IMG/VR virus record: IMGVR_UViG_3300037342_000010
Location: 1 to 31,520 of that record
Source of the DNA: a virus
Length of the DNA: 31,520 nt
Strand: one strand, 5' to 3'
The notes under the pieces are model-generated. The model saw only the letters and a program-made list of their open reading frames with translations, was not told the DNA's origin and ran no database searches. Shown here one piece after another: positions 12,560-31,520 of the stretch (its first letter is position 1; each line of letters opens with the position of its first letter). A program made the translations under genes and the position numbers.

Positions 12560-14431
12560 ATGTCATCCTCCGCACAAACGCCGTTCTTTCCTGAACTTCC
12601 GGCCTCCGCTTCGCAGCGGACGGCGGAAGCCGAGTCACAGGCCGATGCCGCGATTCGGTTGTGGTGTGAAGCTGCTTACGAAGAAGCCGAAGCCGATCAG
12701 AAATCTTCCGAAGAACTGAAAATGGTTGACAGGTATGTCGAGTACCTGCAAGGCGTCCAGTGGCCCACGGCAAGACCTTCCTACCGGGCGAAGCCGATCG
12801 ACAACAAGATGTTTGGGCTCTTCCTCGAATTGCTTGGCCTCCTGACCGACATCCGGCCTATTTCCGAAGTGACCTCGGTAAGCCGTGAGAAGCAGTTCAT
12901 GGATCAGGAAGAGGCGATCAACAAGCGCATGAAGGCGTGGTGGGTGGGGAACAACATCGAGTCAACCTTCGCCATGGGGGTTGTGTACGCGATCTTGACG
13001 TCTTCATTTCTCAAGTTGGAGTGGGATCCGCGCGCGCGCCCGATGGGCCGCGGCGAAGTGTGTTTGCGGCCATTGTCTCCGACTTCGGTTTTACCGTTGA
13101 AGGCTGGGAACACGCTCCAATCCGCAGAGGCTTTGATCTACGCCGACTGGAAGCCGGTGGGATGGGTGAAAGCGAAGTATCCCGGGAAGGCGCATCTCGT
13201 TCGTCCCGACATGGGCGTATCGCAATACTCTGTCGACTCTGGGCCTCCAGGGAATGTAACGCCGCAGTTGTTTAACCTTTTGACTCCGGCCTTCAAGCGG
13301 CTGATGACGAAGGACAAGGCGCGTGTGGGGATCAGCGCGTATCCGGAGTGCCGGTATCGGGAATTCTGGATCAAGGACTACACGGTCAACACGTCCAATC
13401 AAAAAGTGGTGATGGGCGATGTGGCGAACCCGTGGAGAACTTCCTACGAAGTAAAGCCGATGGAATTGTTCTATCCGCGTGGCCGGCTGATCGTGATGGC
13501 GGGCCGGGAGATTGTCGAGGATTGTCCGAACCCGTACTGGCATGGGCAGTTTCCGTTCTCGTTGCTGAGGCTGAATGCCGTTCCGTGGCAGTTGTACGGC
13601 ATGAGTGATCTTCGCTCATGGGCTGACCTACAGGACATCATCAACACGATCTTGGCGGGCGTGATTGACATGATCAAGAAAGCCGTGAACCCGCCATTCT
13701 TCGCGCCGAAGACGGCGTTCTCGGAACAAGTGTGGAACTCGATTGACTTCTCGATGCCGGGCGCGCGTGCGGCCTACAACGCGGTTTCTCCGCAGGGTCC
13801 ACAGATGTTCAAAACCGGAGAGCTTCCGGGTTACGTCCTTCCAGTGATGCAGCACATCACGCGAGAGATGGACCAGCGCTCGGGTATCGCATCGGTCGGT
13901 GAAGCTGTTCGCAAAAAGCAAGTACCTGGCGGCGACACGCTTGACCAGATTCGCCAGTCGCAGCAGGGGCCGATCCGTTACAAGGGCCGGAATATCGAGA
14001 CTTGCATTTCCGAGCTTGGCCAGCAGATGGTGCCAAATATATTTCAGTTCTATAATCGCGATGAGCGCGTGCGAGTTCCGATGCCGCCGGGTGCACCGAC
14101 GAACATGATGGACTGGAACGGCGCGTCTATGATTCCGGAGAAGATGCAGCCGGCGGAGTACATCAAGAATTTTGAGTTCACGGTGATCGAGGGATCGTTG
14201 CTCGGCATTGAGCGTTTCGAGCAAGCGACGAACCTGATGAAGCTGTACCTCGGCCATGTGATCAGCCGTAAGACGCTCTGCGAGAAACTCGATAAGCTGG
14301 GATACATTCACATCGACCCAGACGAGGAAGAGAAGCGACTGGTTCACGAGATGCAGACCGGAACCGCAGCGGCTCCGCCGAAGGGTAAAAAAGGACAGGG
14401 GCCAGCGGGCGGTGGAGGGAAGGCGGCGTAA
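12560..14431 (+). CDS. Portal protein
   Basis: A protein of 623 residues, the size and position of a portal: the dodecameric ring at one capsid vertex through which TerL pumps DNA. Supporting segments are an N-terminal helical part with VEYLQGVQWP (about 61-70), a beta-rich clip-like middle, the long helix QDIINTILAGVIDMIKKAVNPP near residues 357-378 (quoted in part: DIINTILAGVIDMIKKAV), and a charged glycine/alanine/lysine tail. The layout resembles P22-type portals of short-tailed phages more than the 400-500-residue HK97 type. I infer the call from length, helix pattern and the terminase-portal-scaffold-capsid order. It overlaps the next gene by TAATG. Confidence 0.85.
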   Translation: MSSSAQTPFFPELPASASQRTAEAESQADAAIRLWCEAAYEEAEADQKSSEELKMVDRYVEYLQGVQWPTARPSYRAKPIDNKMFGLFLELLGLLTDIRPISEVTSVSREKQFMDQEEAINKRMKAWWVGNNIESTFAMGVVYAILTSSFLKLEWDPRARPMGRGEVCLRPLSPTSVLPLKAGNTLQSAEALIYADWKPVGWVKAKYPGKAHLVRPDMGVSQYSVDSGPPGNVTPQLFNLLTPAFKRLMTKDKARVGISAYPECRYREFWIKDYTVNTSNQKVVMGDVANPWRTSYEVKPMELFYPRGRLIVMAGREIVEDCPNPYWHGQFPFSLLRLNAVPWQLYGMSDLRSWADLQDIINTILAGVIDMIKKAVNPPFFAPKTAFSEQVWNSIDFSMPGARAAYNAVSPQGPQMFKTGELPGYVLPVMQHITREMDQRSGIASVGEAVRKKQVPGGDTLDQIRQSQQGPIRYKGRNIETCISELGQQMVPNIFQFYNRDERVRVPMPPGAPTNMMDWNGASMIPEKMQPAEYIKNFEFTVIEGSLLGIERFEQATNLMKLYLGHVISRKTLCEKLDKLGYIHIDPDEEEKRLVHEMQTGTAAAPPKGKKGQGPAGGGGKAA

Positions 14432-14625
14432 TGGGAACGCAACCAATGTCGAACAACGGAGCGTATCTCGTAAACTCTGACGGGAGTGTGCGAATCGCCT
14501 TGAAAGGCGCGGCTCTGCGCGCTGTGCAACGCATCGTGGAAGGAAAAGAAAACGGCGAAGTCACGTTGCAATTCAAGGGTGGAGCGAACGCTGGAGTGAC
14601 GACGCGGACTGTTTACTCCGATTGA
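14431..14625 (+). CDS. Small unrecognised protein after the portal
   Basis: A 64-residue protein coupled to the portal gene (TAATG). It has short beta-like stretches (NSDGSVRIAL, GEVTLQFKGG, VTTRTVYSD) around one helix (ALRAVQRIVEGKE). It is the last gene before a strong terminator, so it probably ends the packaging operon. Function is unknown. Confidence 0.65.
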   Translation: MGTQPMSNNGAYLVNSDGSVRIALKGAALRAVQRIVEGKENGEVTLQFKGGANAGVTTRTVYSD

Positions 14626-14641
14626 ACCTGTACGAATGTGC

Positions 14642-14669
14642 TTGACAGTTAGTTGTTAATTTGTAACAG
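14642..14669 (+). promoter_or_regulatory. Possible promoter with perfect -35 and flanking direct repeat
   Basis: TTGACA (14642-14647) is a perfect -35 box; the best -10 at a fitting distance, TAACAG (14664-14669, 16-base spacer), is weak. ACAGTT occurs twice 21 bases apart (14645 and 14666), two helical turns, and could be a pair of protein contacts. The string TGCTTGAC is shared with the promoter at 1914. Confidence 0.35.
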
Positions 14670-14675
14670 TTGTCT

Positions 14676-14770
14676 CGACATCATAGACGGCCCTGATTCT
14701 GATTCCCGCGAAAGCGGAAGCGATCTGAAACGGCTTTGAAGAGAAAATCTTCGAGGCCGTTTTTCTTTTT
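14676..14770 (+). ncRNA. Candidate small RNA between promoter and terminator
   Basis: If the promoter at 14642 is used, its transcript would run about 95 bases to the strong terminator and contain no convincing gene. It would hold a small hairpin, CCGC-GAAA-GCGG (14706-14717, a GNRA tetraloop), and the terminator stem. The alternative is that this is simply the 3' end of the packaging operon mRNA. No family is recognised. Confidence 0.25.
14729..14770 (+). terminator. Strong intrinsic terminator after the packaging operon
   Basis: A 14-bp stem (AACGGCTTTGAAGA with TCTTCGAGGCCGTT, two G-U pairs), loop GAAAA, followed by TTTTTCTTTTT up to 14770. It is the best terminator in the window and separates the packaging genes from the capsid module. 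Confidence 0.88.
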
Positions 14771-14780
14771 GGAGTGAATG

Positions 14781-14975
14781 ATGCCGTGGCGACCGGAAGA
14801 TGCAAAACGCCACACGAAGAAAGCGCGGAGCCCGAAAGCAAAAAGGCAATTCGCGCACGTTGCAAATTCGATCTTGCAACGAACCGGTGATGAAGGCCGG
14901 GCGATTCGTGGAGCGAATGCAGCGGTAGCGAAGCGCGGCAAGAAAAAGCGGCACGGAAGAAGTTCGAGCCGCTAG
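14781..14975 (+). CDS. Small basic phage protein (KRHTKKA...TGDEGRAIR.AN type)
   Basis: A 64-residue protein. The second of two adjacent ATGs is chosen because GGAG stands six bases before it. It reads MPWRPEDAKRHTKKA, then FAHVANSILQRTGDEGRAIRGANAAVAKR, quoted here in parts (VANSILQRTGDEG, AIRGANAAVAK), and ends KKKRHGRSSSR. I recall similar short proteins from phages and proteobacterial genomes, usually listed as hypothetical. The TGDEGRAIR.AN pattern looks conserved; the function is not known to me. The very basic end suggests binding to nucleic acid. Confidence 0.7.
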   Translation: MPWRPEDAKRHTKKARSPKAKRQFAHVANSILQRTGDEGRAIRGANAAVAKRGKKKRHGRSSSR

Positions 14976-14998
14976 TCCCCCGGGATGTAGCACTTGGA

Positions 14999-15157
14999 AT
15001 GTCGTACTCGCATTGGGTGGAGGCCCAATCAAAAACCCGCAGCCGGAATTCAAACCGGTTCGCGCGAGAAAGGGGGCAAAAATTCATGCTGGCAATCAAC
15101 AAGTTCGACATGGCCAACAAGCGCAAGAAGAAAGGCCGCGGCAAGCACGGCCGCTAA
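14999..15157 (+). CDS. Very small basic protein
   Basis: A 52-residue frame from ATG 14999 (MSYSHWVEAQSKTRSRN) to the stop at 15155, ending NKRKKKGRGKHGR. A shorter form from ATG 15086 (MLAINKFDMANKRKKKG, 23 residues) has the better ribosome binding site (AAGGGGGC), so the true start is unsure. A hairpin (15012-15029) with GGAGG in its loop lies within the longer form. The basic ending resembles that of other mini-proteins in this module. It would neutralise or bind nucleic acid if expressed. Confidence 0.45.
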   Translation: MSYSHWVEAQSKTRSRNSNRFARERGQKFMLAINKFDMANKRKKKGRGKHGR

Positions 15158-15160
15158 CCA

Positions 15161-15195
15161 TTAACCGGGTGAGGGCTCTGGTCCTCACCCGTTAA
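15161..15195 (+). terminator. Long hairpin without a T tract
   Basis: GGGTGAGG (15167-15174) pairs with CCTCACCC (15183-15190), extended by TTAAC/GTTAA after one bulged base, for about 13 bp in all with an 8-base loop. No run of T follows, so it is either a weak terminator or an mRNA-stabilising or processing hairpin between two small genes. Confidence 0.5.
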
Positions 15196-15217
15196 CTCTG
15201 TTTCGAGGTGAGATTTC

Positions 15218-15436
15218 ATGGCAAAGCGAATGGCGAACACGCCAGCAACGGATGCCCGAGAGGGTCACGGCGATGAATCCTACGTTCCTTCGGTGAGCAA
15301 GGGAACGTTCGTCGACGGCGGCGGAACCTACGAGTCGCTGAATCACACGCCGATGAGCGTAAACAAGAAGTCGGGTGGACCCAGTGGATCGGAAGCTGGT
15401 GGAGTTTCGAGCGGCCCAGCGTTTGGCCGTAGCTAA
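15218..15436 (+). CDS. Small unrecognised hydrophilic protein
   Basis: A 72-residue protein starting at ATG 15218 behind GAGGTGA. It is hydrophilic, rich in Gly, Ser and Thr, and probably largely disordered (GDESYVPSVSKGTFVDGGG, KKSGGPSGSEAGG). No known motif is seen. Its place between small basic proteins and the scaffold gene suggests a head-related role. The start codon and ribosome binding site are clear, which supports expression. Confidence 0.65.
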   Translation: MAKRMANTPATDAREGHGDESYVPSVSKGTFVDGGGTYESLNHTPMSVNKKSGGPSGSEAGGVSSGPAFGRS

Positions 15437-15444
15437 GAGAGATC

Positions 15445-15819
15445 ATGCCGCCAACGTTGGACGCAGCACCTCCATTACCGGATAGCGTCAAGAGTCAAAT
15501 GGGACCACCCGACCCGGGCGCTGGGATGGCTGGCGCCGGAGACATGCTGAAGAAGACGACGGCCTTCGGCGGCGCACCGAACGCGCAAGGCGCATTGAAG
15601 GCGCAGGCCGACGCGGTGAAGGCGGTAGTCCAGAAGATGGCGGATGCCGCGAGTGCCGGCAAGACATTTTTCAGCCGCGCGATGCAGTTGATTGATCAGG
15701 GCATGGCGGCTGAAGCGCAAGGCGGGCCGGGTAGTGCACCGAACCCGAAGGATTCGATGATGGGTGGCGGCGATGCCACTTCATCCGGTAACAAACCCCC
15801 GGGAGCGTTCCCGGGCTAG
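15445..15819 (+). CDS. Unrecognised Gly/Ala/Pro-rich protein before the scaffold
   Basis: A 124-residue protein with disordered, Pro/Gly-rich ends and one helical core at about 48-95 (GALKAQADAVKAVVQKMAD, FFSRAMQLIDQGMAAEAQG). This layout, one amphipathic helical block between flexible ends, is common among small head-assembly or minor capsid proteins. A perfect hairpin covers its last codons. No family is recognised. Confidence 0.65.
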   Translation: MPPTLDAAPPLPDSVKSQMGPPDPGAGMAGAGDMLKKTTAFGGAPNAQGALKAQADAVKAVVQKMADAASAGKTFFSRAMQLIDQGMAAEAQGGPGSAPNPKDSMMGGGDATSSGNKPPGAFPG

Positions 15820-15859
15820 ACCCCGCAGCCGAGGCTCAGCCGGGTAACCGGAAGCTGAG
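15798..15859 (+). promoter_or_regulatory. Two hairpins ahead of the scaffold gene
   Basis: CCCGGGA/TCCCGGG (15798-15804, 15809-15815) form a 7-bp stem with a 4-base loop over the end of the previous gene. CTCAG+CCGG, loop GTAA, then CCGG and CTGAG after three bulged bases (15835-15859) form a second stem with a GNRA tetraloop. No T tract follows either. They may stabilise the scaffold mRNA, mark an RNase site or reduce read-through. Confidence 0.5.
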
Positions 15860-15886
15860 GAAGGGGAACTGAGGAGAAAGATTTTT

Positions 15887-16813
15887 ATGGCACTGTCTGC
15901 TGAGCTTGAAGCATTGTGCGCTGAGATCGACAAGGTTGACCCCGCAGCCGGAAAGGCGCAGCGGGAAGCGCTGGAGAAGTTTCCAGCCCTCGCGACAGTG
16001 ACACAGGAGCAGAGGCTCCGCCAGGCTGACTACGACAAGAAGATGAACGACAGTAAAAAAGAGATCGAGTACGGCAAGACGATGAAGGATTGGGCCGACA
16101 AGAACGTCCCCAAGTTCGACGAGATGAAGAACGAGCGCGATACGGCTGTAGCCGCGCAGAGGAAAGCCGACGAGGCGCTGGCCAAGGCGCAGAAAGACCT
16201 TGCTGCGAAAGTCGATACGGCCGCTGCCGCAGCCGGTGTTGACCCCGACAAACTGGCCGAAGCGGTTCGTCTGAAGATTGGCGGCGATTACGTCCCGAAA
16301 GCAGAGCTTGCGAAGTTGGTGAAAGATGAAGCCAACAAGCTTGTCGACGATGGGTTGAAGACGGCAACCAATAAGTTCTACAACGAAGACGTTCCGCGCC
16401 TTTCTGGCCTCAATGCCGCGCTGACCGAGGGTATGAACCGCTTCCATGATGAGTTCGGTGACCACATGGATCCTGAAGCTTACGTGGCTCACCTGGCAAC
16501 CGGTGGCGACAAGTTCATGACGGACGGCAAGTTCGACCGCAAAAAGGCGTATGACGCTTTCGTTACTCAGCAGCGTTCGGACAAGGGCCGCGCAGCCGAG
16601 ATCGAGAAAGAAGCGCAGAAGCGCGCGGACAAGATTATGGAAGAGCGCGGCATGGCCGGCGGCTTCCCGGGAACCAGTGGACCTGCTGGACCGATCCAAG
16701 TTCGATTGAATGCGAAGAGTGCGGACGACCCACTCTTCGGCGGCAAGATGGCGTTGGGTGATGGCGGCGCAGCAGCGCAGGCCGCAGCCGAACTCCACGC
16801 TGAAGGCAAATGA
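15887..16813 (+). CDS. Putative scaffolding protein
   Basis: A protein of 308 residues, highly charged and mostly helical, with a coiled-coil-like centre (about 45-115: SKKEIEYGKTMKDWADKN, ERDTAVAAQRKADEALAKAQ) and a glycine-rich loop before a short C-terminal helix. Its place directly before the major capsid gene and its composition are those of a phage scaffold, which shapes the prohead and then leaves or is cut. ATG 15887 follows GAGGAG. There is no protease motif, so a scaffold-protease fusion is unlikely. The call rests on context and composition. Confidence 0.7.
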   Translation: MALSAELEALCAEIDKVDPAAGKAQREALEKFPALATVTQEQRLRQADYDKKMNDSKKEIEYGKTMKDWADKNVPKFDEMKNERDTAVAAQRKADEALAKAQKDLAAKVDTAAAAAGVDPDKLAEAVRLKIGGDYVPKAELAKLVKDEANKLVDDGLKTATNKFYNEDVPRLSGLNAALTEGMNRFHDEFGDHMDPEAYVAHLATGGDKFMTDGKFDRKKAYDAFVTQQRSDKGRAAEIEKEAQKRADKIMEERGMAGGFPGTSGPAGPIQVRLNAKSADDPLFGGKMALGDGGAAAQAAAELHAEGK

Positions 16814-16826
16814 TCTTTGAGTAGTG

Positions 16827-16942
16827 AGCGCTCCGGGAAGGAATAACCTTCCGCAGCCCGTTGAAGCGCTGTCGTACAGGTGACGCGAAAGGGAAGTCGA
16901 ATAGACGCAGCCCTAGAGCCAGCCGGCAAACGAAAATTTTGC
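16827..16942 (+). promoter_or_regulatory. Structured spacer upstream of the capsid gene
   Basis: The 148-base gap before the capsid gene holds a perfect hairpin, GGAAGG-AATAA-CCTTCC (16836-16852), enclosed by two AGCGCT copies (16827 and 16865) that can pair, and a second inverted repeat, GCAAA/TTTGC (16926-16942). The capsid ribosome binding site (AAAGGA, about 16946) follows. CGCAGCCC occurs at 16852 and again near 16903. A leader controlling stability or translation of capsid mRNA is the likely role. Confidence 0.4.
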
Positions 16943-16961
16943 TGTAAAGGATGGCTCGTTT

Positions 16962-17924
16962 ATGGCGCTTACATATGACGATTTGACTTCTAAGACAAAC
17001 AAGTTCATCGTCCCGCGAATGGTGGACGAAGTCTACAAGTCCTCTCCGCTGTTTACTCGCCTCCGCACCCGCAACATGGAGCGCTTCGAAGGTGGGCAGA
17101 CCATCCGCCATCCAATCATGTATGCGAAGCTGAAGGGCGGCGCGTTCACGCGCGGCGGATCGTTTGACACGTCGTACGTGCAGACCGATACCGCGCTCGA
17201 AGTTCTCGTGAAGTACTACTACGTGAACGTCACCCTTTACGGCGTGGACAACGTTCTGAACCGCGGCGCCGAAGCCGCGATGTCTTTGGTTGAATCGAAG
17301 ATGGTCAACGCCTCCGCCCGCATGGCCGACCTGTTGGGCGTGGACCTGTTTCTCGACGGCCAGGGCACGAACTCGACCGCGCTGCAGCTCGACGGCTTGC
17401 AGGCATCGGTCGACGACGGCACGAACTTCGTGTCTTACGGCGGCATTCTGCGAACGGACATTGCGACCGGCGACAACGCTGGCATCAACTCCTACTACCA
17501 GAACTTGACGACGCTGACTCTGGGCGCCGTCCAAACCGCGTATGGATCATCGTGGTTCGGGCGCGAGCACGTCGATCTTATCGTCTCTCCGCAGGCTATT
17601 TGGGATACGCTCTGGAATAAGATTCAGCCCCAGCAGCGTTTCCGCGAAGAGTCTTCGGACGTGGCGAAGATCGGCTTCCAGGCGCTGCGCTTCAACAACT
17701 CCTCGGTCACGGTCGATCAGCTTTGCCCGACCGGCTTCATGTTCGGACTGAATACCAAGTTCATTCAGTTCTGGATCACGACCATGCCCAAATATCAGTT
17801 TGGATTTACGGGATGGAAAGAGGCACAAAACACCGACGATGTAGCTGGTCAGTATCTTTTCGCCGGCAATCTCCTCAATGTGGGTCCGAGATTCATGTTC
17901 AAAATTCAGGGCCTTACGGGATGA
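16962..17924 (+). CDS. Major capsid protein
   Basis: A protein of 320 residues that follows the scaffold gene and is in the size range of HK97-fold capsid subunits. It begins directly with folded sequence (LTSKTNKFIVPRMVDEVYKS), with an N-terminal helix, an E-loop-like glycine-rich beta stretch at about 45-80 (KGGAFTRGGSFDTSY) and a long spine-helix candidate at about 100-125 (EAAMSLVESKMVNASARMAD). There is no cleaved pro-domain. The C-terminal part contains KYQFGFTGWKEAQ, whose core recurs in the gene at 1326. It resembles capsid proteins of short-tailed phages annotated simply as phage major capsid protein. Expression should be high; structured spacers flank both sides. Confidence 0.85.
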   Translation: MALTYDDLTSKTNKFIVPRMVDEVYKSSPLFTRLRTRNMERFEGGQTIRHPIMYAKLKGGAFTRGGSFDTSYVQTDTALEVLVKYYYVNVTLYGVDNVLNRGAEAAMSLVESKMVNASARMADLLGVDLFLDGQGTNSTALQLDGLQASVDDGTNFVSYGGILRTDIATGDNAGINSYYQNLTTLTLGAVQTAYGSSWFGREHVDLIVSPQAIWDTLWNKIQPQQRFREESSDVAKIGFQALRFNNSSVTVDQLCPTGFMFGLNTKFIQFWITTMPKYQFGFTGWKEAQNTDDVAGQYLFAGNLLNVGPRFMFKIQGLTG

Positions 17925-18781: not shown

Positions 18782-18817
18782 ACGGCGGTGCACGAAAACG
18801 AGTAGGGAGAGAAGACG

Positions 18818-19183: not shown

Positions 19184-19187
19184 ACTC

Positions 19188-19204: not shown

Positions 19205-19207
19205 CTG

Positions 19208-19243: not shown

Positions 19244-19254
19244 AGGGGGACAAA

Positions 19255-20534: not shown

Positions 20535-20535
20535 C

Positions 20536-20736: not shown

Positions 20737-20738
20737 TT

Positions 20739-20846: not shown

Positions 20847-20851
20847 TTTCA

Positions 20852-20971
20852 ATGGCACGCAAATCAATCAGGGAAGAAGAAAAGAAAGAGTTGTCCAGGC
20901 TGAAGAAGCAGGACAAACGCCACAAGCGGATGAAGAAAGGCCGCAAGGGCCGCAGTTCTGGAAGGGAGTAG
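20852..20971 (+). CDS. 39-residue highly charged mini-protein
   Basis: ATG 20852 has a textbook ribosome binding site, GGAGGTGAT, spaced correctly, which is the main reason to call it. The protein is a single charged helix (REEEKKELSRLKKQDKRHK) followed by RMKKGRKGRSSGRE. The ending is close to those of the proteins at 14781 and 14999. It is probably a nucleic-acid-binding or scaffold-like peptide. Confidence 0.6.
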   Translation: MARKSIREEEKKELSRLKKQDKRHKRMKKGRKGRSSGRE

Positions 20972-21241: not shown

Positions 21242-21793
21242 ATGGCCAAGCGAGTTTTCAAGAAGTACACGATCGTGGCCGGGGGCACGCCGCAGCCGCT
21301 GATTGGAACGACGATCTCGGCTGCCACGGGGCCGGGCGGAACCGATCCAAATGGCGACCTGTCGGTAGTCAATGTCGCCGTGACCGACAGTTCGATGTTT
21401 CAGGGCGGCGACTGGGCAATCATCGGCTCAGTGGCGAATGGCGACGAAGAGCGGGTGTGGGTGAAGAAAGTCCCTGACGGAACTCACGTCACCGTACAGA
21501 AGATGGCGCTGGCGCATGTGAACGGTTCCTACATTCGACTCTCGATCTTCTGCGAGGCCATCTATGTGCAGACGACGGCTGGAAACGCGGCAATTTTTTA
21601 TCTCGGCACGCAAGGGCTGGTGAAGGCGACCTATGCGAACGTGATTGCGGAACTGATTCCGGTCGCGGCTTCTGCGGTGCAGCCGATTGAGTATACCGAT
21701 CCGTACTACATCGCAGACTCCGGGGATGTCGGACAGTACTTCGTTGATGGGACGACCGGCGATGGCTGGCTTCCTTCGTTGACGGTTATGTGA
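21242..21793 (+). CDS. Beta-rich structural protein
   Basis: A protein of 183 residues starting at ATG 21242 with an AAGGAAT site. After a basic start (MAKRVFKKYTIVAGG), strands and loops alternate (DLSVVNVAVTDSSMFQGGDW, HVTVQKMALAHVNGSYIRL), giving the look of a small virion or tail protein with a beta-barrel or beta-sandwich core. It lies just before the fibre genes and may be the platform to which they attach, but that is inferred from order only. Confidence 0.6.
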   Translation: MAKRVFKKYTIVAGGTPQPLIGTTISAATGPGGTDPNGDLSVVNVAVTDSSMFQGGDWAIIGSVANGDEERVWVKKVPDGTHVTVQKMALAHVNGSYIRLSIFCEAIYVQTTAGNAAIFYLGTQGLVKATYANVIAELIPVAASAVQPIEYTDPYYIADSGDVGQYFVDGTTGDGWLPSLTVM

Positions 21794-21799
21794 GGCTTC

Positions 21800-23239
21800 A
21801 TGAAAAGAATTCTGGCAATCGTGTTGTTGTTGGCGGCTCATGCCTTCGCGCAAGGCACGGGCGGGGGACAGAGCGGAACTGGCGGTAGCGGCAGCGGCGT
21901 GACCAGCGTCAGCGGAACAGTTAACCAGGTGGATGTAGCGACAGGAACGACTACGCCGGTAGTTTCGCTCGACCTAGCGATCACTCTGCCGGGAAGTCTG
22001 ACGGTGCCAACTGGTTCAAGCATTCTCGTGAGCGGATCGGGAACGATTGCGGCTACTACCGCAGGCAATATGAGCACGAGCGGGACGGCTTGGCAGGTAT
22101 GGGGAGAGAACAGCGGTGCCTCTTCCCAAGGTTGGCAGACTCCACCTATCAGTTCGTTTGCCAGCCCAACCGCTTCTGCCACGTTCACTCAGCCAAGCGG
22201 CAACACCACAACGTTCAACGGAACGGCTCCGGGGAGTTCGGCTGGTGCAGGCACGGCTGGCACAACCGACTTTGCGGTCACGCAGGCAGCCGGAGGCGCT
22301 ACCACTGGATCGGCAACGACGGCAGGGGCGGGTGCGGCGGGCACGATTAACTGCGGCGGGGCGGGAGGTAGCGGAGCGGGTGGCACGAATGCGATCGGAG
22401 GCGCTGGCGGTAACTGCACGATCTCAGGAGGGACTGGCGGTGCATCAGGGGGCAGCGCCGTAAACTCCAACGGCGGAAACATCGTTTTGTCACCGGGAGC
22501 GGCAGGGACGGGTGGTGGCGGAACAGCCGGCGTGGCTGGCACGGTAGTTTTCCCGTTGGGTTCAGTCAGTTCGCCTGCATTCCAGGCAACAGGGTCCGCA
22601 GCAAATACAGGGTTTTACTGGTCTAGCACTACCGCCCCTTGCACCCTAAGCGCAGGGAATGTGGTTGATTGCTTCCCAAGTGGCGGAATTATCATTGGGA
22701 ATGCCAAGAATTACGAATTTTCTCAGACGGCTTCCGGGAGTGGCGCTGCTGGACCAAGCATCGGAGTGGTCGGAAGCAGCACTACGGAGTGGCTCAATAC
22801 TTCCACGCCGATTATCCTGCCGCAGTGCAAGATCGCGGCGCCGGTGACCCTCTCGACTACCACGACGATCTGCACTTGGACGCTTCCGAACGCAGCGACA
22901 ACCTTTAGTTACCAATGCCAAGGGACGTACTCGACCACCACGACTGCGATCACGCTTCTGCTTGGAACGCAATTCTCGCAAGCCCCCAGTGCCGGGGCTA
23001 ATAACGCGATTATCTGGAGTGCGGCCAGTCTGCAAACGTTCGGTACGGCTACTAATACCGGAACAACGGCTGTCCCAACGATGACCGGAGCGGCGGTATC
23101 CAGCGGCACTAATATTCCGTGGTATGCGTCGGGAACGTTTACGAGTAGCGCGACGAGCGGAACCTTTGTGATTTATGGCACTGCGTCCACGGCCACTGAT
23201 GTGACGATCGCTACAGGTTCGAGTTGCAATCTATTCTAG
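21800..23239 (+). CDS. Gly/Thr-rich fibre-like protein with Sec signal peptide
   Basis: A protein of 479 residues. It begins MKRILAIVLLLAAHAFAQ, a typical Sec signal peptide with AFA-Q as cleavage site. A phage-fibre phrase follows (GVTSVSGTVNQVDVATGTTT), then a very glycine-rich middle (about 145-245; GGAGGSGAGGTNAIGGAGG) and a beta-rich C-terminal part with several Cys. The composition fits a tail fibre or surface adhesin. A signal peptide is unexpected on a protein assembled into virions in the cytoplasm, and the next three genes also have one. The ribosome binding site is only partial (GAGG near 21791). Confidence 0.7.
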   Translation: MKRILAIVLLLAAHAFAQGTGGGQSGTGGSGSGVTSVSGTVNQVDVATGTTTPVVSLDLAITLPGSLTVPTGSSILVSGSGTIAATTAGNMSTSGTAWQVWGENSGASSQGWQTPPISSFASPTASATFTQPSGNTTTFNGTAPGSSAGAGTAGTTDFAVTQAAGGATTGSATTAGAGAAGTINCGGAGGSGAGGTNAIGGAGGNCTISGGTGGASGGSAVNSNGGNIVLSPGAAGTGGGGTAGVAGTVVFPLGSVSSPAFQATGSAANTGFYWSSTTAPCTLSAGNVVDCFPSGGIIIGNAKNYEFSQTASGSGAAGPSIGVVGSSTTEWLNTSTPIILPQCKIAAPVTLSTTTTICTWTLPNAATTFSYQCQGTYSTTTTAITLLLGTQFSQAPSAGANNAIIWSAASLQTFGTATNTGTTAVPTMTGAAVSSGTNIPWYASGTFTSSATSGTFVIYGTASTATDVTIATGSSCNLF

Positions 23240-23241
23240 CC

Positions 23242-23511
23242 ATGAAGAAATTTCTTCTCGCTATCGGGATTCTGTTGACAGCCGCTCTCTGTCATGCACA
23301 GAGCACGCAGAGTTACAACGGCTGGTGCCAGCAGGGAAACCAGCCAGTCGTCCTTCAAGGACTGAACGGCACTACGGCCTGCGTGTTGGGATCAGCTATA
23401 GGTGTCATCGTGGATAACTCGGGAACGATTAACCAGATGTCTGGAGCAACAACTGCGGGCATTGCCATGAGCACAACGCTGGCGCTGGTGCAGTTACATA
23501 TCAGTCAATAA
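23242..23511 (+). CDS. Small secreted protein, fibre-related
   Basis: An 89-residue protein starting at ATG 23242, three bases after the previous stop. The signal peptide MKKFLLAIGILLTAALCHAQ has CHA-Q as likely cleavage site; a lipoprotein reading (LTAALC) is weaker. The mature part contains YNGWCQQGNQPVVLQGLNGT and a second Cys, then a Gly/Thr-rich end. I recall the CQ.G.QPV..QGL pattern from the N-termini of larger secreted phage fibres, so this may be a split-off or shortened version of that domain. Confidence 0.65.
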   Translation: MKKFLLAIGILLTAALCHAQSTQSYNGWCQQGNQPVVLQGLNGTTACVLGSAIGVIVDNSGTINQMSGATTAGIAMSTTLALVQLHISQ

Positions 23512-23515
23512 GGCC

Positions 23516-26500
23516 GTGAGGAATCTCGCCAAACTCGCGCTCGTAGCCGTGGTCTTGAGTCCAATAGTTGGACTGGCTCAGGGTGTCCGTTATCCCAACA
23601 CGGTTTTCTCCCAAGGCGGATTTCCGGATGCTCAAGTGACGGTTTGCACGGAACCGGCTACCGATCTTCCCGGCGGAGGGTGTACGCCGCCGGCTACGGT
23701 GTATCAGGATCCAGCGCTGACAATTCCGATCGAGCAGCCGTTTTCGACAGACGCGAATGGCAACTTTGCTTTCTTTGCCGCGTCGTCGACCGTGGGCGTT
23801 CCGGCAACTCAGTACCATGCTCAGATTCAGGGCATCGGGCTCACGCCATACGACATCCCGTACATCTTCATCCCCGGTGGCGGCGGCAGTGCTGGAACCC
23901 CGCCAGGCGGATTGAACGGCCAGCTCCAGTACAACATTTCAGGGACATCGTTTGGCGGTCTACCGTGCCTGTGGACGGGATCACCAACGAATTCTCTGGT
24001 CTGCAATCCTGTGACGCTGACAGTTTCTGGCGGGCTTGGCATTGGACCAACAACTCCAGCGGCTTGCGGAAGCGCGCAGGATTGCATTGCGTTCTTTCAG
24101 AATGCAGTAGCTGGAAATCCGACCGCTGGCGAGAACTATTTCTACGCGACCTCGACCGGGTGGAACTGTGACATCAATGCCGGCTCCGAGTTTCCTTGCG
24201 TGAGCAATGGAATGCCGGTGCTCAACGTCAAGGCTTTGGGAGCAACTGCCGCGGGCTATCCAACTGATGATCGAACTACAATCCAAGGCATTATCAACTC
24301 TTGTCCGCAGGTGGGAACCTATAAGGGCTGCATCGTCTTCTTCCCGGCTGGCAACTATTATGTATCGAGTCCCGGCCTGACGAATGGCGCAGGGAGTACC
24401 TACCACGGGGTTCGTCTGGTCGGAGACGGCACGGCCGGGAGAAGTGGCTCGACATCTACCATCGAAACCAACGGCACCGGGTATTACGCATTTAGCGCTG
24501 GGGTTCCCACGGCAGGAAACGCCTACGGTTTACAGATCGACCAACTCGGATTTACGGACGAATCGAGCACAGGCCAAGGCGCGATCTACGTGGCGGGGAT
24601 GACGGACGGCGCGTTTACCAACCTCGTCTGCAATAATTTCTATGTTGGCGTTTGCATCACAGCCGATGGTGGAGTCGGCGTCGATCAGTACCAGAACCTG
24701 ACCAACATCTACACATGGCACACAAGGACACGCCTTCAGACCGTCCACCGTACGGCCTCGATCACGGTTTTCGGCGGCGAGGGGAACTGCCAAAACTCGG
24801 CCTCGACGGACGTAATCCCGAACTCCTATGATCTGGACATCGGCTACACGCGACAAGTCTCTGGCGCGGGCACCGTAAACACCGTTGGGACAGCGATTAC
24901 AATCGCTTCGTTCACCAGCGGGTTTGGTTCTCTGACTCAGGATTACGTGAATGCGCCGATTGTAATCAACGGAGTTACTTACACTATCCTCGCGGTGACC
25001 GGCGCCAGCACGGCAACGCTGACTGCAACCGCTGGCACTCAGACCGGGGTTGCGTGGAGCATTACCGGACAGGGCGGAACTGGTGAGTACGCAATCACGA
25101 GCGCGAGCCAGAACTGCCAAGTGGGAAGGGCGATATTTAATGCTGGTGGGATGAAGTTTCAGGGCGACAAGGCCAGTGAGCAGACGATCCTTTATCGACC
25201 GACTGGATCATTCGGCGTGATTGTGGCTGGCGATAGCCCGACTCTTACAAACAACAACACCTTCATCGGTGAACAGGTCACGGCCTCTGGAACCGGTATA
25301 TGGATTGGAAAGAACGCGCAGAACACATCCATCATCAGTCAGACTGGCGATGGCACAAACGGCATGGACCTTGCAATCGACGCGACGGCCTTTACGACGA
25401 CGCACCTTGATCCAACCTTTCGCTATTCGGGGTGGACTACCAATCTAGCCACGATTTCGCGCAGCGGCAACCTAGTCACGGCGACCACGACGCCGAACTT
25501 GCTGACGAACAACCCCGGCAATCTAAGCATCATTCCAGGGGCGTTGGTTACTGTCTATGGAGTCACCGGGGGCACTACCAGCTTTAATGGTACGTTTGCG
25601 ACTACCGCGCTTACGGGAGTTTCTTGCAACGACACAACCGATGTGTGCACGCTGACATGGGCGCAGACCGGCGCCAATGAATCTGGCTCCATTAACACCA
25701 CGGCTTGCGTGGGCGGTTCTGGTGGTTCGTGCATCGCGGCGCTTTCGTCCATTCTGTCGACCAGCACGGGGCTCGGCGTGTTGGAGCAAACAGGAGCCAG
25801 TGTTGTGACCGATGTTGTCCTGCAGCAGATGCGCGTGCCGCCACAGCAGATTATGCCCCTTACCACGATCGCCGGCACAGCACGCTACTTCTACGATGGA
25901 TCGTTTTGGGACATCATCTACGGGAACCCCGGCTATGGGGTTCTTCACTTGTCGGATGGCCCTCTGGTCGGAAATGGAAATAATTCATCTCAGTACTACC
26001 AGCCGCAGCCAACCCAAACCAATAGCGAAGTGGCATGCACCACGGCAGTGAGTGTATCCACGCAGGCCAATGTCTGCCAAAGCAGCGACGACAAGGGCTA
26101 TCAGGGGTTTAGCGCTCCGAACGGCACTACTGTGTGTCTTCCCGCGCTGCCTGATCCCGGTTTCCCTCCTGGTTTCTCGGTTACCTTGGCCTATGTCCCC
26201 GGATCAGGAAATAACTTCCTTGCCTTGGTCCCCCCTGGGCAAGCGAGCCCATACGGGGCTATCACTTGTCCCGGGGCGACTGGCACTACTTACATGGGGT
26301 CGACAGCCGTGGTTAAGATTTGGCCGCAGCAGTCATTGAAGATCAGGACGAACCCCATCGGAACCGAATGGCTTGGGGAGTCGGGTAATCAAACTTACGT
26401 GCCGCCTCTGACGACGGTACTTCCCTTCGAGCACTGTACCCCCGACACTTCTGGGTTTGTGTCGCTCACGACGCCGATCACTTTTACCAACTGGTTCGCA

Positions 26501-26893
26501 ACCGCATGGGAGTTCCAGCCAAGCCACACCTACGGCATGTTCTGCGATGTGATGATCCCGACTACACTGACGCCGGGATCCACGGCGCAAGTCCTACTTT
26601 ACATCGCGGCCAACGATGCGACCGCTGGCCATACAGCCAATTTCCAGAGTTCAGATGTGGCGGTGGCGGCGACAAGCGGAAACTTGCAAGTGGGAACACT
26701 CACATCGTCCAGCGCGCTGCCGTACACGACAACCTCGACGGCCTACCAGCAAGTGTTACTCACATTTGCTGTAAACTCCTCTCTGTCGGCGGGGCAGAAG
26801 TTGATTGTCAAGATCGGTACTTCGGGCACCGGAACCCCGCCCGCTGCTAACATGATCGTGTACCCGTACCTGCAACTCAGCCAGAACTTCTAA
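23516..26893 (+). CDS. Tailspike-like protein with pectate-lyase-type beta-helix and signal peptide
   Basis: A protein of 1125 residues starting with GTG 23516. Residues 1-22 are a Sec signal peptide ending GLAQ. Residues about 23-125 form an attachment-like domain (CTPPATVYQDPALTIPIEQP, DANGNFAFFAA). From about 235 a pectate-lyase-3-type start is clear: NVKALGATAAGYPTDDRTTI, then CIVFFPAGNYYVSSP and VRLVGDG, the pattern of right-handed beta-helix depolymerase spikes. A beta-rich C-terminus (about 985-1125) probably folds as a jelly roll for trimer formation or sugar binding. Likely job: binding and cutting host surface polysaccharide. Catalytic residues cannot be assigned by eye. Confidence 0.8.
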   Translation: MRNLAKLALVAVVLSPIVGLAQGVRYPNTVFSQGGFPDAQVTVCTEPATDLPGGGCTPPATVYQDPALTIPIEQPFSTDANGNFAFFAASSTVGVPATQYHAQIQGIGLTPYDIPYIFIPGGGGSAGTPPGGLNGQLQYNISGTSFGGLPCLWTGSPTNSLVCNPVTLTVSGGLGIGPTTPAACGSAQDCIAFFQNAVAGNPTAGENYFYATSTGWNCDINAGSEFPCVSNGMPVLNVKALGATAAGYPTDDRTTIQGIINSCPQVGTYKGCIVFFPAGNYYVSSPGLTNGAGSTYHGVRLVGDGTAGRSGSTSTIETNGTGYYAFSAGVPTAGNAYGLQIDQLGFTDESSTGQGAIYVAGMTDGAFTNLVCNNFYVGVCITADGGVGVDQYQNLTNIYTWHTRTRLQTVHRTASITVFGGEGNCQNSASTDVIPNSYDLDIGYTRQVSGAGTVNTVGTAITIASFTSGFGSLTQDYVNAPIVINGVTYTILAVTGASTATLTATAGTQTGVAWSITGQGGTGEYAITSASQNCQVGRAIFNAGGMKFQGDKASEQTILYRPTGSFGVIVAGDSPTLTNNNTFIGEQVTASGTGIWIGKNAQNTSIISQTGDGTNGMDLAIDATAFTTTHLDPTFRYSGWTTNLATISRSGNLVTATTTPNLLTNNPGNLSIIPGALVTVYGVTGGTTSFNGTFATTALTGVSCNDTTDVCTLTWAQTGANESGSINTTACVGGSGGSCIAALSSILSTSTGLGVLEQTGASVVTDVVLQQMRVPPQQIMPLTTIAGTARYFYDGSFWDIIYGNPGYGVLHLSDGPLVGNGNNSSQYYQPQPTQTNSEVACTTAVSVSTQANVCQSSDDKGYQGFSAPNGTTVCLPALPDPGFPPGFSVTLAYVPGSGNNFLALVPPGQASPYGAITCPGATGTTYMGSTAVVKIWPQQSLKIRTNPIGTEWLGESGNQTYVPPLTTVLPFEHCTPDTSGFVSLTTPITFTNWFATAWEFQPSHTYGMFCDVMIPTTLTPGSTAQVLLYIAANDATAGHTANFQSSDVAVAATSGNLQVGTLTSSSALPYTTTSTAYQQVLLTFAVNSSLSAGQKLIVKIGTSGTGTPPAANMIVYPYLQLSQNF
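23558..23574. repeat. 17-bp palindrome, copy 6
   Basis: AGTCCAATAGTTGGACT has perfect 7-bp arms around a 3-base centre and matches copy 1 at 15 of 17 positions. It lies in the signal-peptide codons of the tailspike gene. Confidence 0.45.
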
Positions 26894-29800
26894 TGCGACT
26901 GCTCCTCAGACTCGCGCTGCTGCTGGCTCTCGCCATCCCCGCATCGGCGGCAACGTACTACGTGTCCGCAGCCGGAGCCGATACGAACGCTGGCACGGCT
27001 ACCACGACCTCATGGCTGCACGCGCCGGGAATGCCGAACTGCTCCAACACTTGCGCCTCGACCACGATCTATGCCGGAGATTCGGTAATCCTGCGTGGCG
27101 GCGACACGTGGCACGCGAACGTCAACACCGCCGTCTATATGGGCGGCAACTGGCACTTCACCACGGCTGGAAGTTCCGGGAGCCCGATCTATATCGGCGT
27201 GAGCAAGACGTGGTTCACAGGGACCGTGTGGACGCAGCCGGTCATCACGGGCGACAATCCGGTGTTCAACGGCACCAGCTTTCCGGCGTCCTGCACCTAC
27301 GATTACGGAACTCCGACGCAAAAGTTCCTGATCCAGATTAGCCAGTACAATACTTTCGACAACATCGCATACCTTGGAGACTGCTGGAGTGGCAGCGCGA
27401 GCGGCTTCCCCGGTCAGCTCTACGCCCCCGGCAATGACACCCTGACGAATCTCTACTGCCACGGCTGGACGCTGACCTCAACCTCCTCGGATGCCGTTCC
27501 CTGCATCGCCTCGCAAGGCTCGAATAACATCATCGAGTACAACGTGTTCGACGGCAGCGATGCGCCGAACGGAGCAGCAGGAAGCGCGATCTGCACGAAC
27601 TCTCCGGCCGGCGTGGGATGCACGACTGGCATAGGTATTTACGACGCGGGCTCGGTTGTCGCATTCAACGTCTTTCATCAAATCCGCGTAGGCGGCGTGC
27701 TGGTGGACAGCGAACTGGTCCACGACAACACCTTTGAGTACATGGCCCCGGCCCCGATCAGTTCGATGGGCGTCCAGCACGACGACGCGATCATGTACTA
27801 CCACGGGGGAACGTCGGCCTCGGGCGTGACTGAGTATCTTTACAACAACGTCGTGCGGCACAACTGGATCAACGAGCAGTTTTATATCCCGGTCAGCGGT
27901 GGCTCGACCGCCTACGTTTTCAACAACGTTTTCTATGACAACCACAATGCCGCTGTCGGCAACTGCATCCAGCTCAACGCGCAAAGTTCCGGCACTCAGA
28001 CGCTTTATCTCTATAACAACACTATCGACCAGGACACCGACAATTCCAGCGGCAACACAAACGGCTGTACGATCACCTTTTACGGCACGACAGGCGGTAA
28101 CTCCTTTGGCATCCCGTGGACCGGGCCAGTTTACACCGCGAACAACCACCTGATCGGGTTGAGCGCGATAGCGTCACTGTTCGGCAGCAACTCCGGCGCA
28201 ACCTACACAGTCAATCAGAACGGCGGCGATCTCTTGCAGCCTACCGCGACGGCCCGTTCCCAAGGCTATGTGCAAGCGACCAATGACGCCCCTGTAAACA
28301 GCACTGGTTCGACAGTTGGAGCCGGGATTAACGCTTCCTCGCTCGCGTCCACGTTCTCCTCCGACCTTGCGCTCGATATGAGCACTCCGCTAGGGCCGGT
28401 GCTCGCGGCTGGCTATGGCGGGTACTTCGCGCAGTACCCCCAGATTGCGATGGTCGCCCGTACCGGCGTGCACTCTGGCGCGTGGGACTCGGGCGCGTAC
28501 AAGTGGCTCGTCATCCCGGCGGTCCTGCCGTGCCAGACCGGGTATAGCTGTTTAACAACCTCGACCTCGAACCCCGGCCTAGCGCCTGCTCCCTTCGCTG
28601 GCACCACGGGTGTGAACCAGACGGCCTACGATCCCACCTACAACCAGCTTGGCCTTGGCTGCTACACACGAGCCACAGACTCGACCACGTTCGGCGGGAA
28701 GTCGGTTGGAAATAACACCTACTCCGGTGGCGACAACGATATCATGTGGAGTAAGAACTCCGACTTCGTAGGGACGACGGAGGGCGGATTCATCTTCATC
28801 CTGAATCTGAACGTCAGCGGGAATTGCGCGCAAGTCTTGAACACGGGCAACATCACCGGCGCGGGCGGAATCAGCGGCCCAGGCCCGTTCGGGTTCTCGA
28901 AGGTGCAAGACAATCTGTACTGGAACCTGGTCAACGATACCCAGATTCAGAGCAACGTCATCACCATTCCCTACAACAAGACGGTGACGCAGACGGTCAT
29001 CGCGGACGTGGCGAACGGAACAACGTGCCCCGGCCTTCCCTTTCCCTTTACCCCGACGTGGAGCGGCATTCTCGGCATCAAGAACGACGATACGCGCTTC
29101 GCGATCCTCCTGAGTAACACCGGCGGTCAAGGCACGGGAGTCTGGTCGGTGGTCTACGACCGGACACTCGGGTGCGCAGTAGAGAACACCAGCACCGGCT
29201 CCTATTGGGCATTCTGCACATCAAGTTGCACGCCCTCAACACCCGCGACCGGGACGCTATCGACCACGGGCAATTCCTGCTGGGGCGGCGCGATCCACGA
29301 CGGCCAATTCTCCGGGGACGGTAACTCGGTGGTCATCAGCGAGAACCAAGGCACGGCATGGACGCAAGGGGCGTGCGCTGGGGTGAGCACAGGCACGCAA
29401 TTCTCGATCTGGACACCGGGAACGGCGACAACAGCATGGTGCGGCACGAATACGTCTGGCGGCGGCGGCCTGTATTGCGGAGGGCACGATTCGGTTGGAA
29501 CCAGCAAGATCATCACCTCCGAATCGTCCTCGGTTGCCGCGACCCGCTTGCTGTCGAATGTGACTTCCTACACCCAGTACGCGACCGGCCCACTGTGGTC
29601 CGCGCACGGGTACTGGCCACAACCCGACCAAGCAGACGACTACCCCTATGTGCAGACGGCTTACGGCCTTCTGGCCACAGGGCAGGACTCAGGGTGCGGG
29701 AACCCGAATCTCTGCCCCATCGCGGGTGGCAACGCCATCTTCGTAGACTATCCCGGCAACCCCAGCGCTTATCCTCCCGGCCAGGCGCGCACTTATGCTG

Positions 29801-31520
29801 GGCACACATTTAGCTGCAACACTACGGCTGATCCGACTTACGCGACCTGTCCGCAGGGTTTAGGAGATTTCGGCTTCGGCGGTCAGTACAGCATCATGTC
29901 AGTGTCGCAGGATGGGCAGTGGGCGATGATGGCGAGCGGGATGCTGCTGGGGCTCGGCATCGACTCGACGGGAAACTCCCGCGTGGACGACTTCATCGTG
30001 CATCTTGGGTCACCGCTGTCCACCTTCCCTCACGTTCTGACCGCCGTGCAGCCGCCGACGAGCCCAACGCAGACTAACTATACGGCCTATCAAGCGGTGC
30101 TCGCGCAGAACTCACCGCTACTGCCGATGCAAACTGTCATCGCAGGAGCCGGGAATTCGCAAGCCGCGCCAATTCCTCTCTATATTGACTCGGATACGGG
30201 TACGGGTGCCTGCTCAGTCACGCCTGTGTTCACGACGCTCGACGCGGTAATTGCAGGCTTCTCGGGAATCACTAGCATTATCATCGCCCCGGTGCTAGAA
30301 GGTGGGCAGAACGGCTCTACTTCCAAGTGTGTATGGTCTCAGGCATGGGCGAACGCCTCAGCGCTGACGTGGGCTGCAAGCACGCACTATCTCCCCGGCG
30401 AATATATTTGCATTGGCGCGGCCTGCACGAATCCCACGCCGAGCGGCAAGTATTGGCAGATTCAGACCGGCTGCTACCCCGGCACAGGATACGACAATAC
30501 ATGCGTCTCCAGCGGCACGATCCCATCGTTCCCAGCCTGTATCACAGGTTGCACTCCTGGCACCACAACCGTCGCAGACGGTGCTGGCCCAACAGCGTTC
30601 AACTGGGTCTATGAGGGCTCCGCTGCGCCGTTGCAGGACTCCGCGTGCAACTTTAGCTATAAGTGCGGTAGTTCTACGACGAACTGCTGGCTGGCCAACG
30701 GTTCCGCTGACATCATCATCAACTCAGGCTCCCTTGGCCCATGCACGCTGAACGAGCTGTGGCAATCCCTCCCCATCCCCTCCGAGTTGCCGATCCGCAA
30801 CTGGTACAACCAGATCATCGCGGCGGTGATCGCGCACTACAACGGGAACCCGAAGGTCGGATACATCCGGTTCGGCGGCGTGGCTGGAGGAGAACTAGGC
30901 CCGTTGAAGAGTTCCGAATGGCCGTGGTACGGCTCGACCACCGGCCAGAACCGGGCGCAGTTCCTGTCATGGGTGAACAAGTTTGACGCCGGGATCATGG
31001 GAAACTCGCCCACGGTTCCCATCTACTCGAACTTCAACGTCGCAGGACCGGGCTTCACCGACCCCCTGTACGCGGATCAGGAAGCCTTGCTCGCGGTGCA
31101 ATACAACTTCAACGGTCTCGACACCAACGGCGCTCAACTCTACGACGTACTCAACCTGCTCGGAACCGGCGTACAGAACTGTGCCTTCCCGCTCGTTCTG
31201 GGAACGGAATGCACCACGAGCGACTGGGCTCCGATCTTCGCAACTTACAGCACCAATTCAGCCGGCAATCCCATGCACCACGTACTCCAGAGCGCCACGG
31301 GCTCAAACCCGCTTGATTGCACGTCTCCGTTAGTCGAGGGGCCGATGGGAGCGCTGCCGCCTGGGTCAACCTATTGTGCTGCTGGCTATCCTGGGATGCT
31401 GCCGTTCCTGAACACGTTCGCCACGGTCGGAGTCGGAAGTCCGTCACAGAAGGTATCCGTGGACACGTATGAGTTGTACACGAACGCCTCGGCCGGAACG
31501 ACTCCCACGCAAGAGGCCAG
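26893..31520 (+). CDS. Very large secreted beta-helix protein, 3' end beyond the window
   Basis: The frame is open from ATG 26893 (TAATG overlap with the tailspike) to the window edge, at least 1542 residues. It begins MRLLLRLALLLALAIPASAA, a clear Sec signal peptide. Residues about 20-420 look like a right-handed parallel beta-helix: YYVSAAGADTNAGT at the start, then recurring rungs such as NNIIEYNVFDGS, VHDNTFEYM, YNNVVRHNWI and VFNNVFYDN. A long Cys-, Gly- and Thr-rich middle follows. From about 1300, AVIAHYNGNPKVGYIRFGGV and the following Trp/Tyr-rich part resemble a glycoside-hydrolase-like barrel. A polysaccharide depolymerase or adhesin is likely; the hydrolase part is a weak call. Confidence 0.75.
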   Translation, partial: MRLLLRLALLLALAIPASAATYYVSAAGADTNAGTATTTSWLHAPGMPNCSNTCASTTIYAGDSVILRGGDTWHANVNTAVYMGGNWHFTTAGSSGSPIYIGVSKTWFTGTVWTQPVITGDNPVFNGTSFPASCTYDYGTPTQKFLIQISQYNTFDNIAYLGDCWSGSASGFPGQLYAPGNDTLTNLYCHGWTLTSTSSDAVPCIASQGSNNIIEYNVFDGSDAPNGAAGSAICTNSPAGVGCTTGIGIYDAGSVVAFNVFHQIRVGGVLVDSELVHDNTFEYMAPAPISSMGVQHDDAIMYYHGGTSASGVTEYLYNNVVRHNWINEQFYIPVSGGSTAYVFNNVFYDNHNAAVGNCIQLNAQSSGTQTLYLYNNTIDQDTDNSSGNTNGCTITFYGTTGGNSFGIPWTGPVYTANNHLIGLSAIASLFGSNSGATYTVNQNGGDLLQPTATARSQGYVQATNDAPVNSTGSTVGAGINASSLASTFSSDLALDMSTPLGPVLAAGYGGYFAQYPQIAMVARTGVHSGAWDSGAYKWLVIPAVLPCQTGYSCLTTSTSNPGLAPAPFAGTTGVNQTAYDPTYNQLGLGCYTRATDSTTFGGKSVGNNTYSGGDNDIMWSKNSDFVGTTEGGFIFILNLNVSGNCAQVLNTGNITGAGGISGPGPFGFSKVQDNLYWNLVNDTQIQSNVITIPYNKTVTQTVIADVANGTTCPGLPFPFTPTWSGILGIKNDDTRFAILLSNTGGQGTGVWSVVYDRTLGCAVENTSTGSYWAFCTSSCTPSTPATGTLSTTGNSCWGGAIHDGQFSGDGNSVVISENQGTAWTQGACAGVSTGTQFSIWTPGTATTAWCGTNTSGGGGLYCGGHDSVGTSKIITSESSSVAATRLLSNVTSYTQYATGPLWSAHGYWPQPDQADDYPYVQTAYGLLATGQDSGCGNPNLCPIAGGNAIFVDYPGNPSAYPPGQARTYAGHTFSCNTTADPTYATCPQGLGDFGFGGQYSIMSVSQDGQWAMMASGMLLGLGIDSTGNSRVDDFIVHLGSPLSTFPHVLTAVQPPTSPTQTNYTAYQAVLAQNSPLLPMQTVIAGAGNSQAAPIPLYIDSDTGTGACSVTPVFTTLDAVIAGFSGITSIIIAPVLEGGQNGSTSKCVWSQAWANASALTWAASTHYLPGEYICIGAACTNPTPSGKYWQIQTGCYPGTGYDNTCVSSGTIPSFPACITGCTPGTTTVADGAGPTAFNWVYEGSAAPLQDSACNFSYKCGSSTTNCWLANGSADIIINSGSLGPCTLNELWQSLPIPSELPIRNWYNQIIAAVIAHYNGNPKVGYIRFGGVAGGELGPLKSSEWPWYGSTTGQNRAQFLSWVNKFDAGIMGNSPTVPIYSNFNVAGPGFTDPLYADQEALLAVQYNFNGLDTNGAQLYDVLNLLGTGVQNCAFPLVLGTECTTSDWAPIFATYSTNSAGNPMHHVLQSATGSNPLDCTSPLVEGPMGALPPGSTYCAAGYPGMLPFLNTFATVGVGSPSQKVSVDTYELYTNASAGTTPTQEA

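Follow-up and report, generated by a model that had tools for sequence, protein, structure and literature searches.

Sec leaders and even cysteine numbers point to export of the tailspike cassette in a podovirus-like phage with a probable Acidobacteriota-type host

Introduction

The DNA analysed here (the window) is the complete 31,520-base IMG/VR virus record IMGVR_UViG_3300037342_000010, a podovirus-like late region of a soil phage that encodes a terminase large subunit, a portal, a probable scaffold, a major capsid protein and tail genes, together with four genes whose products begin with leaders for the general secretory (Sec) pathway. Tailed-phage assembly is taught as purely cytoplasmic, and to our knowledge known tailspikes are made in the cytoplasm without leaders. 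Inovirus coat proteins, signal-arrest-release (SAR) endolysins and spanins are phage proteins that use the Sec pathway; these are membrane-extruded coats or lysis proteins, unlike the tailspikes of tailed phages. A literature search (most subscription journals lay outside it) found no precedent for exported tail fibres. The locus therefore raises the question of whether the leaders are genuine and, if so, where the exported proteins act. We give a probability of about 0.6 to the reading that the tailspikes are exported, cleaved and oxidized in the periplasm, and then dock to virions at or after lysis.

Results

Four consecutive genes carry Sec leaders

The 35 window genes were read from their listed starts and submitted to a rule-based Sec signal scan. 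Exactly four passed, all in one block, and none of the 31 others did; gene 18818 passed weakly, from internal starts only. The block comprises the following features:

21800..23239, + strand: fibre 1, 479 residues, Sec leader followed by a glycine/threonine-rich fibre, 8 mature cysteines
21800..21850, + strand: Sec leader of fibre 1, cleavage AFA^Q
23242..23511, + strand: small exported protein, 89 residues, 2 mature cysteines, related to the leader-bearing fibre c of contig L012
23242..23298, + strand: Sec leader of the 23242 gene, cleavage CHA^Q
23516..26893, + strand: probable exported tailspike, 1125 residues, GTG start, 24 mature cysteines
23516..23578, + strand: Sec leader of the 23516 gene, cleavage GLA^Q
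23579..23899, + strand: tailspike virion-docking (head-binding-type) domain directly behind the 23516 leader, cysteine pair at 23645-23647 and 23681-23683
26893..31518, + strand: exported mosaic spike or enzyme, at least 1542 residues, running off the window end, 42 cysteines in the part seen
26893..26949, + strand: Sec leader of the 26893 gene, cleavage ASA^A

The predicted leaders are, in gene order, MKRILAIVLLLAAHAFA^Q (21800), MKKFLLAIGILLTAALCHA^Q (23242), MRNLAKLALVAVVLSPIVGLA^Q (23516) and MRLLLRLALLLALAIPASA^A (26893). All have the n-h-c organization with small residues at -3 and -1 that marks Sec export and signal peptidase I cleavage. Chance hydrophobic starts were ruled out by the background of the scan (1.4% of random sequences of the same composition pass), by the contiguity of the block and by its recurrence in relatives. 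Applied to Escherichia coli K-12 as a control, the rule picked up the five clear Sec proteins (eco, ompC, yfaP, yfaQ and yfaT); the false positives comprised membrane proteins and Mqo, and no other soluble cytoplasmic protein passed.

A preliminary description of this locus had announced Sec signal peptides on four consecutive fibre or spike genes, to be checked by signal peptide prediction; the scan confirms the signals on all four. The label 'fibre or spike', originally a guess, is supported for the 23516 gene by its matches in profile and fold searches and for the other three by synteny and by domains in common with other leader-bearing fibres, but 'four fibre genes' overstates the case, since the 89-residue product of the 23242 gene is a stand-alone domain rather than a fibre. 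This small protein is similar to the N-terminal part of larger fibres that bear leaders, with which it shares a WCQxG..VV.QGL motif also present in gene 588-3806 of contig L193, and may represent an N-domain that has become detached. Annotation of the four proteins against Pfam and PHROG gave no match, including none to a lysis family. An identity as lysis proteins (SAR endolysin or spanin) was rejected on these grounds and on size, three of the four being fibre-like and 479 to more than 1500 residues long.

Mature proteins have even numbers of cysteines

When leaders were removed at a site chosen blind to cysteines, the number of mature cysteines was even in all 27 leader-bearing proteins that have at least four of them (P = 7.5e-9), whereas with the leader included it was even in only 15 of the same 27. 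Among leaderless proteins of the same contigs, 164 of 304 had an even number. A curated set, restricted to complete leader-bearing fibre genes with at least four mature cysteines and including the cultured Tunturi phages introduced below, gave 28/28 even after leader removal and 18/28 with the leader counted; one gene per homology cluster left 19/19 even (P = 1.9e-6). In the 3155-residue protein of relative G001, removal of the leader lowers the count from 101 cysteines to 100. Cysteine content is also high, with a median of 2.2% in mature leader-bearing fibres versus 0.36% in relatives' leaderless genes at or near the same position (P = 3e-6).

In bacteria with periplasmic oxidative folding, exported proteins favour an even number of cysteines, and a Sec leader combined with even cysteines, the feature common to DsbA/VKOR substrates and these phage spikes, has been used to predict periplasmic disulfide proteins (PMC7678975). 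The present proteins differ from such substrates in being phage late proteins with up to 100 mature cysteines, and the exported proteins sampled from Acidobacteriota genome G252 are cysteine-poor (0.43%). Because parity is perfect only once the leader is removed, the leaders appear to be cleaved and the mature proteins to fold with all cysteines paired. As judged from sequence, the leader-bearing proteins very probably fold outside the cytoplasm, and export, leader cleavage and full cysteine pairing are well supported. Cysteine parity alone is silent on the later destination of the proteins.

The trait recurs in related contigs and in cultured Acidobacteriota phages

The major capsid protein search returned 46 related viral contigs, and the capsid alignment search 80 (contigs are given by our own handles). 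The survey of related phages proposed in the preliminary description found leaders at fibre positions in more than ten related contigs. Three leader-bearing fibre genes were counted in L003, four in L012, two in L007, one in L014, four in G001, and one to three each in L130, L132, L147, L148, L163 and G015; L042/L062 also have a leader at the fibre position. One leaderless gene serves as a syntenic marker:

21242..21793, + strand: leaderless 183-residue gene, directly 5' of the first leader-bearing fibre in most relatives

It has relatives in L003, L005, L007, L014 and L062 (33-44% identity), and a leader-bearing gene stands at the position of fibre 1 in L003, L007, L014 and L062. Long leaderless fibre genes occur in L016, L018, L020, L037 and L039, and relatives' leaderless fibres lie at or beside the same position. 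On the capsid tree the leader label requires 3 changes, versus 7.0 in shuffles. Leader sequences are unconserved beyond the n-h-c pattern and the cleavage site, which is a small residue followed by Q in 28 of 32 leaders. Q is likewise found at +1 in 17 of the 38 predicted leaders of the Acidobacteriota chromosome G252. Three Acidobacteriota genomes have VKOR family matches, and two have clear DsbA-like thioredoxins. In L007, a long open reading frame (15720-20936, G003) runs from fibre 1 through a stretch that appears to be out of frame into a second leader-bearing spike, probably owing to a frameshift in the phage or in the assembly.

Among isolates, the closest portals are those of Tunturi_1 and Tunturi_2, podoviruses of the Acidobacteriota host Tunturiibacter (PMC11924767), although Tunturi_1 is distant from the window phage (21% portal identity). 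A text search of that article found no mention of signal peptides, virion proteins or disulfides. The Tunturi genomes were examined after the pattern had been defined and thus provide an independent test. In Tunturi_1, four large fibre genes bear leaders and give products with 20, 10, 20 and 32 mature cysteines, and so does a further, small gene of 149 residues bear a leader; in the siphovirus Tunturi_4 there are three large ones, with 12, 8 and 20. Large Sec-leader fibre genes, even mature cysteines and Acidobacteriota hosts are thus shared by Tunturi_1, Tunturi_4 and, for the first two features, the window, whose phage we infer to have an Acidobacteriota-type host; its relatives probably infect Acidobacteriota. 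In Tunturi_4 (PP885687, 80076-83171, L206), the gp111 start annotated in GenBank (80433) lies downstream of another in-frame start, from which the protein gains a Sec leader. Secretion of a whole fibre cassette, which the preliminary description considered unexpected, is strongly supported by leaders in the host dialect, by cysteine numbers that are even only without the leader and by this independent test in cultured isolates.

A tailspike docking domain lies behind the 23516 leader

The domain that follows the 23516 leader was modelled from 9 sequences (predicted local distance difference test score, pLDDT, 80). A profile search of the PDB placed the Pan3 'Tail spike protein' first (E 0.0055) and also listed the Pam1 tailspike head-binding domain; a fold search of the PDB gave the tail complex of cyanopodophage Pan3 as best match, and a second structure aligner returned Pan3 (Z 8.6), Pam1 (Z 8.4) and the P22 tailspike head-binding domain (Z 6.7). 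Matches in BFVD include phage pectate-lyase spikes and fibres. Proteobacterial matches were set aside, as both of those read were internal domains of large proteins. The docking domain is thus what the 23516 protein shares with the tailspikes of P22, Sf6, Pan3 and Pam1 (Pan3 and Pam1 by profile; Pan3, Pam1 and P22 by fold); single scores are modest, and two methods agree. The tail gene context is shared as well, the window portal resembling SU10/P22 portals and the tail genes adjoining it. Unlike P22-type tailspikes, which are made leaderless in the cytoplasm, the window spike has a cleavable Sec leader and an all-paired cysteine set, and leaders are present on all four genes. The cysteine pair of the docking domain occurs in every leader-bearing copy found; it is absent from the Pan3 segment of the profile alignment and from the single leaderless copy, in the G300 prophage. 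The 23516 gene is therefore likely to encode a tailspike that has kept its docking domain behind a cleavable leader.

The best-surviving alternative, which we consider unlikely although it deserves serious attention, is that the exported proteins are secreted depolymerases, adhesins or decoys and not virion parts, an unrecognized leaderless protein being the true receptor-binding protein. The proteins would fill the periplasm, and lysis would free them to strip neighbouring exopolysaccharide or to block receptors. This accounts equally well for export, cleavage and disulfides, and free enzymes would fit the protein sizes, the several copies per phage and the swapping of modules; lysis-like genes come immediately after the cassette in L193 and L194. 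It does not predict that 23516 and its relatives keep a tailspike docking domain right behind the leader, or that Tunturi_1 gp13 and L147 have another fibre-like N-terminal motif in that place. G001, a 101.8-kilobase contig with repeated ends, and Tunturi_1 are apparently complete; in G001 no lineage-specific fibre gene lacks a leader, and the conserved late genes without one belong to the shared core, and no evident leaderless substitute fibre was found among the translated late genes of Tunturi_1. Finally, the leaderless fibres of relatives occupy or neighbour the very position of the leader-bearing ones. The preliminary description had proposed both that the proteins join virions after export and that they are exported depolymerases: both proposals remain, the first being favoured by the tailspike docking domain and by the absence of any evident substitute without a leader. 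That the exported proteins attach to virions would be the most economical reading.

Spike modules move between phages

Over residues 1-541, including the leader, the 26893 protein shares 82% identity with a gene of L192, a contig in which the present capsid was not detected; over residues 551-1532 it shares 68% with an L193 gene that carries a leader of its own, and over residues 539-1038 it shares 36% with L194. A Tunturi_1 fibre and a Tunturi_4 fibre are also related, across tail types. These matches indicate that exported spike modules move between unrelated phages with their leaders kept. The 26893 gene is the last of the cassette and is cut by the contig end; as to the right-handed beta-helix receptor-binding body of P22-type tailspikes, there was no Pfam match, and the AlphaFold model of the 26893 body had a pLDDT of 28.6. 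Two unrelated phage contigs, L193 (9142-13591) and L194 (7556-10657), have lysis-like genes (holin-like, endolysin-like and o-spanin-like lipoproteins) behind the exported-fibre cassette.

A search of 297 Acidobacteriota genomes with the N-domain of 23516 gave two matches. The first is a leader-bearing gene in a 4.85-Mb chromosome (G252), near a resolvase and an integrase. The second lies in a prophage region on a 63-kilobase contig (G300), where the domain is leaderless and lacks the cysteine pair and the next gene bears a leader. This podovirus-like region (L175-L177, G300:C158, about 1-32000) has the leaderless docking-domain gene at 23621, adjoining a leader-bearing gene of 1130 residues at 24234.

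The first of these matches would suit a recent capture of host secreted genes, with leaders and cysteines as passengers that play no role in the phage, as would the resemblance, below cut-off, of the docking domain of two relatives to the CarboxypepD_reg domain. We nevertheless regard such a capture as highly improbable. The trait persists over deep branches of the capsid tree and in two tail morphologies, the exported proteins sampled from G252 are poor in cysteine, and the close relatives of the 26893 modules were in other phage contigs; no relative of 26893 was detected in the 297 Acidobacteriota genomes, in a search that had no positive control. Origin from host secreted proteins, which the preliminary description had offered, is thus unsupported as a full explanation.

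The same description had also proposed that the leaders serve as virion-attachment sequences. Such uncleaved hydrophobic sequences, attaching the proteins to the virion or anchoring them in a membrane, would be N-terminal, where phage spikes dock, but this is very hard to sustain: parity is perfect only without the leader, so that the oxidized protein appears leaderless, leader sequences are not conserved beyond n-h-c pattern and cleavage site, and a complete docking domain follows the leader. A dual fate, with one part of each spike kept in the cytoplasm for normal assembly and the other exported to act outside, would square export with the usual route of assembly and has very little to recommend it, since no in-frame start with a clear ribosome-binding site for a cytoplasmic form lies near the mature N-termini of the four window genes and the cysteine-rich sequence with strict parity implies selection on the oxidized form.

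Other features of the window and of a relative

The genes for the body of the virion lie upstream of the cassette:

12560..17924, + strand: leaderless virion core, with portal (12560-14431), 308-residue probable scaffold (15887-16813) and major capsid (16962-17924)

The terminase large subunit gene (7838-10849) contains an in-frame insert of about 250-300 residues with intein features (it starts C-LDPETPI and ends VSHN before S), which matches Pfam Intein_splicing weakly. A separate in-frame insert of about 330 residues with intein-like ends was observed in the portal gene of G001 (L073, record positions 53324-56212). The open reading frame 3736-4500 matches the phage peptide deformylase family phrog_2890 (E 1.1e-28).

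Discussion

In the reading that we prefer, the tailspikes and fibres of the cassette would be exported through the host Sec pathway, signal peptidase I would remove the leaders, and the spikes would fold in the periplasm of an Acidobacteriota-type host, every cysteine being paired. The virion core would be assembled in the cytoplasm as usual, from leaderless proteins, and mature spikes, with a podovirus tailspike docking domain at their start, would attach to spike-less particles when lysis brings both together. Docking at lysis is chemically plausible, since the P22 tailspike joins the particle last and its addition also works in vitro. The proteins are probably virion parts, with docking at or after lysis. 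The preliminary interpretation as a whole is partly supported.

Several observations weigh against this reading. We found no virion proteomics on any phage considered here, so that presence in the virion is inferred, and we know of no tailed phage shown to add exported spikes. The docking-domain assignment combines a modest Pan3 profile score (E 0.0055) with a 9-sequence model, and some unrelated folds reach Z 6-7.7. The near relative L005 has a leaderless first fibre, with no cysteine in the 253 residues seen, which means that members of the clade can do without a leader; similarly, the fibres of Tunturi_3 and the fibre genes in the first 50 kilobases of Tunturi_5 are leaderless, in phages of the same host genus. 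The completeness of G001 was called from its end repeats only. Cysteines could also pair in air after lysis, although the jump in parity on leader removal would then be unexplained.

We think it somewhat more probable than its contrary that tailed phages can have an extracytoplasmic maturation step, which Acidobacteriota phages would commonly use while passing spike modules between unrelated tail types. The cultured pairs, Tunturi_1 and Tunturi_4 on Tunturiibacter, make the idea of exported spikes directly testable. If it is correct, exported disulfide-bonded tailspikes would be a source of disulfide-stabilized binding proteins and depolymerases, and a leader combined with even cysteines would be a simple genomic marker of receptor-binding proteins in uncultured soil phages, and possibly of Acidobacteriota hosts too. 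Such spikes would add a compartment and a post-lysis step to the assembly of tailed phages.

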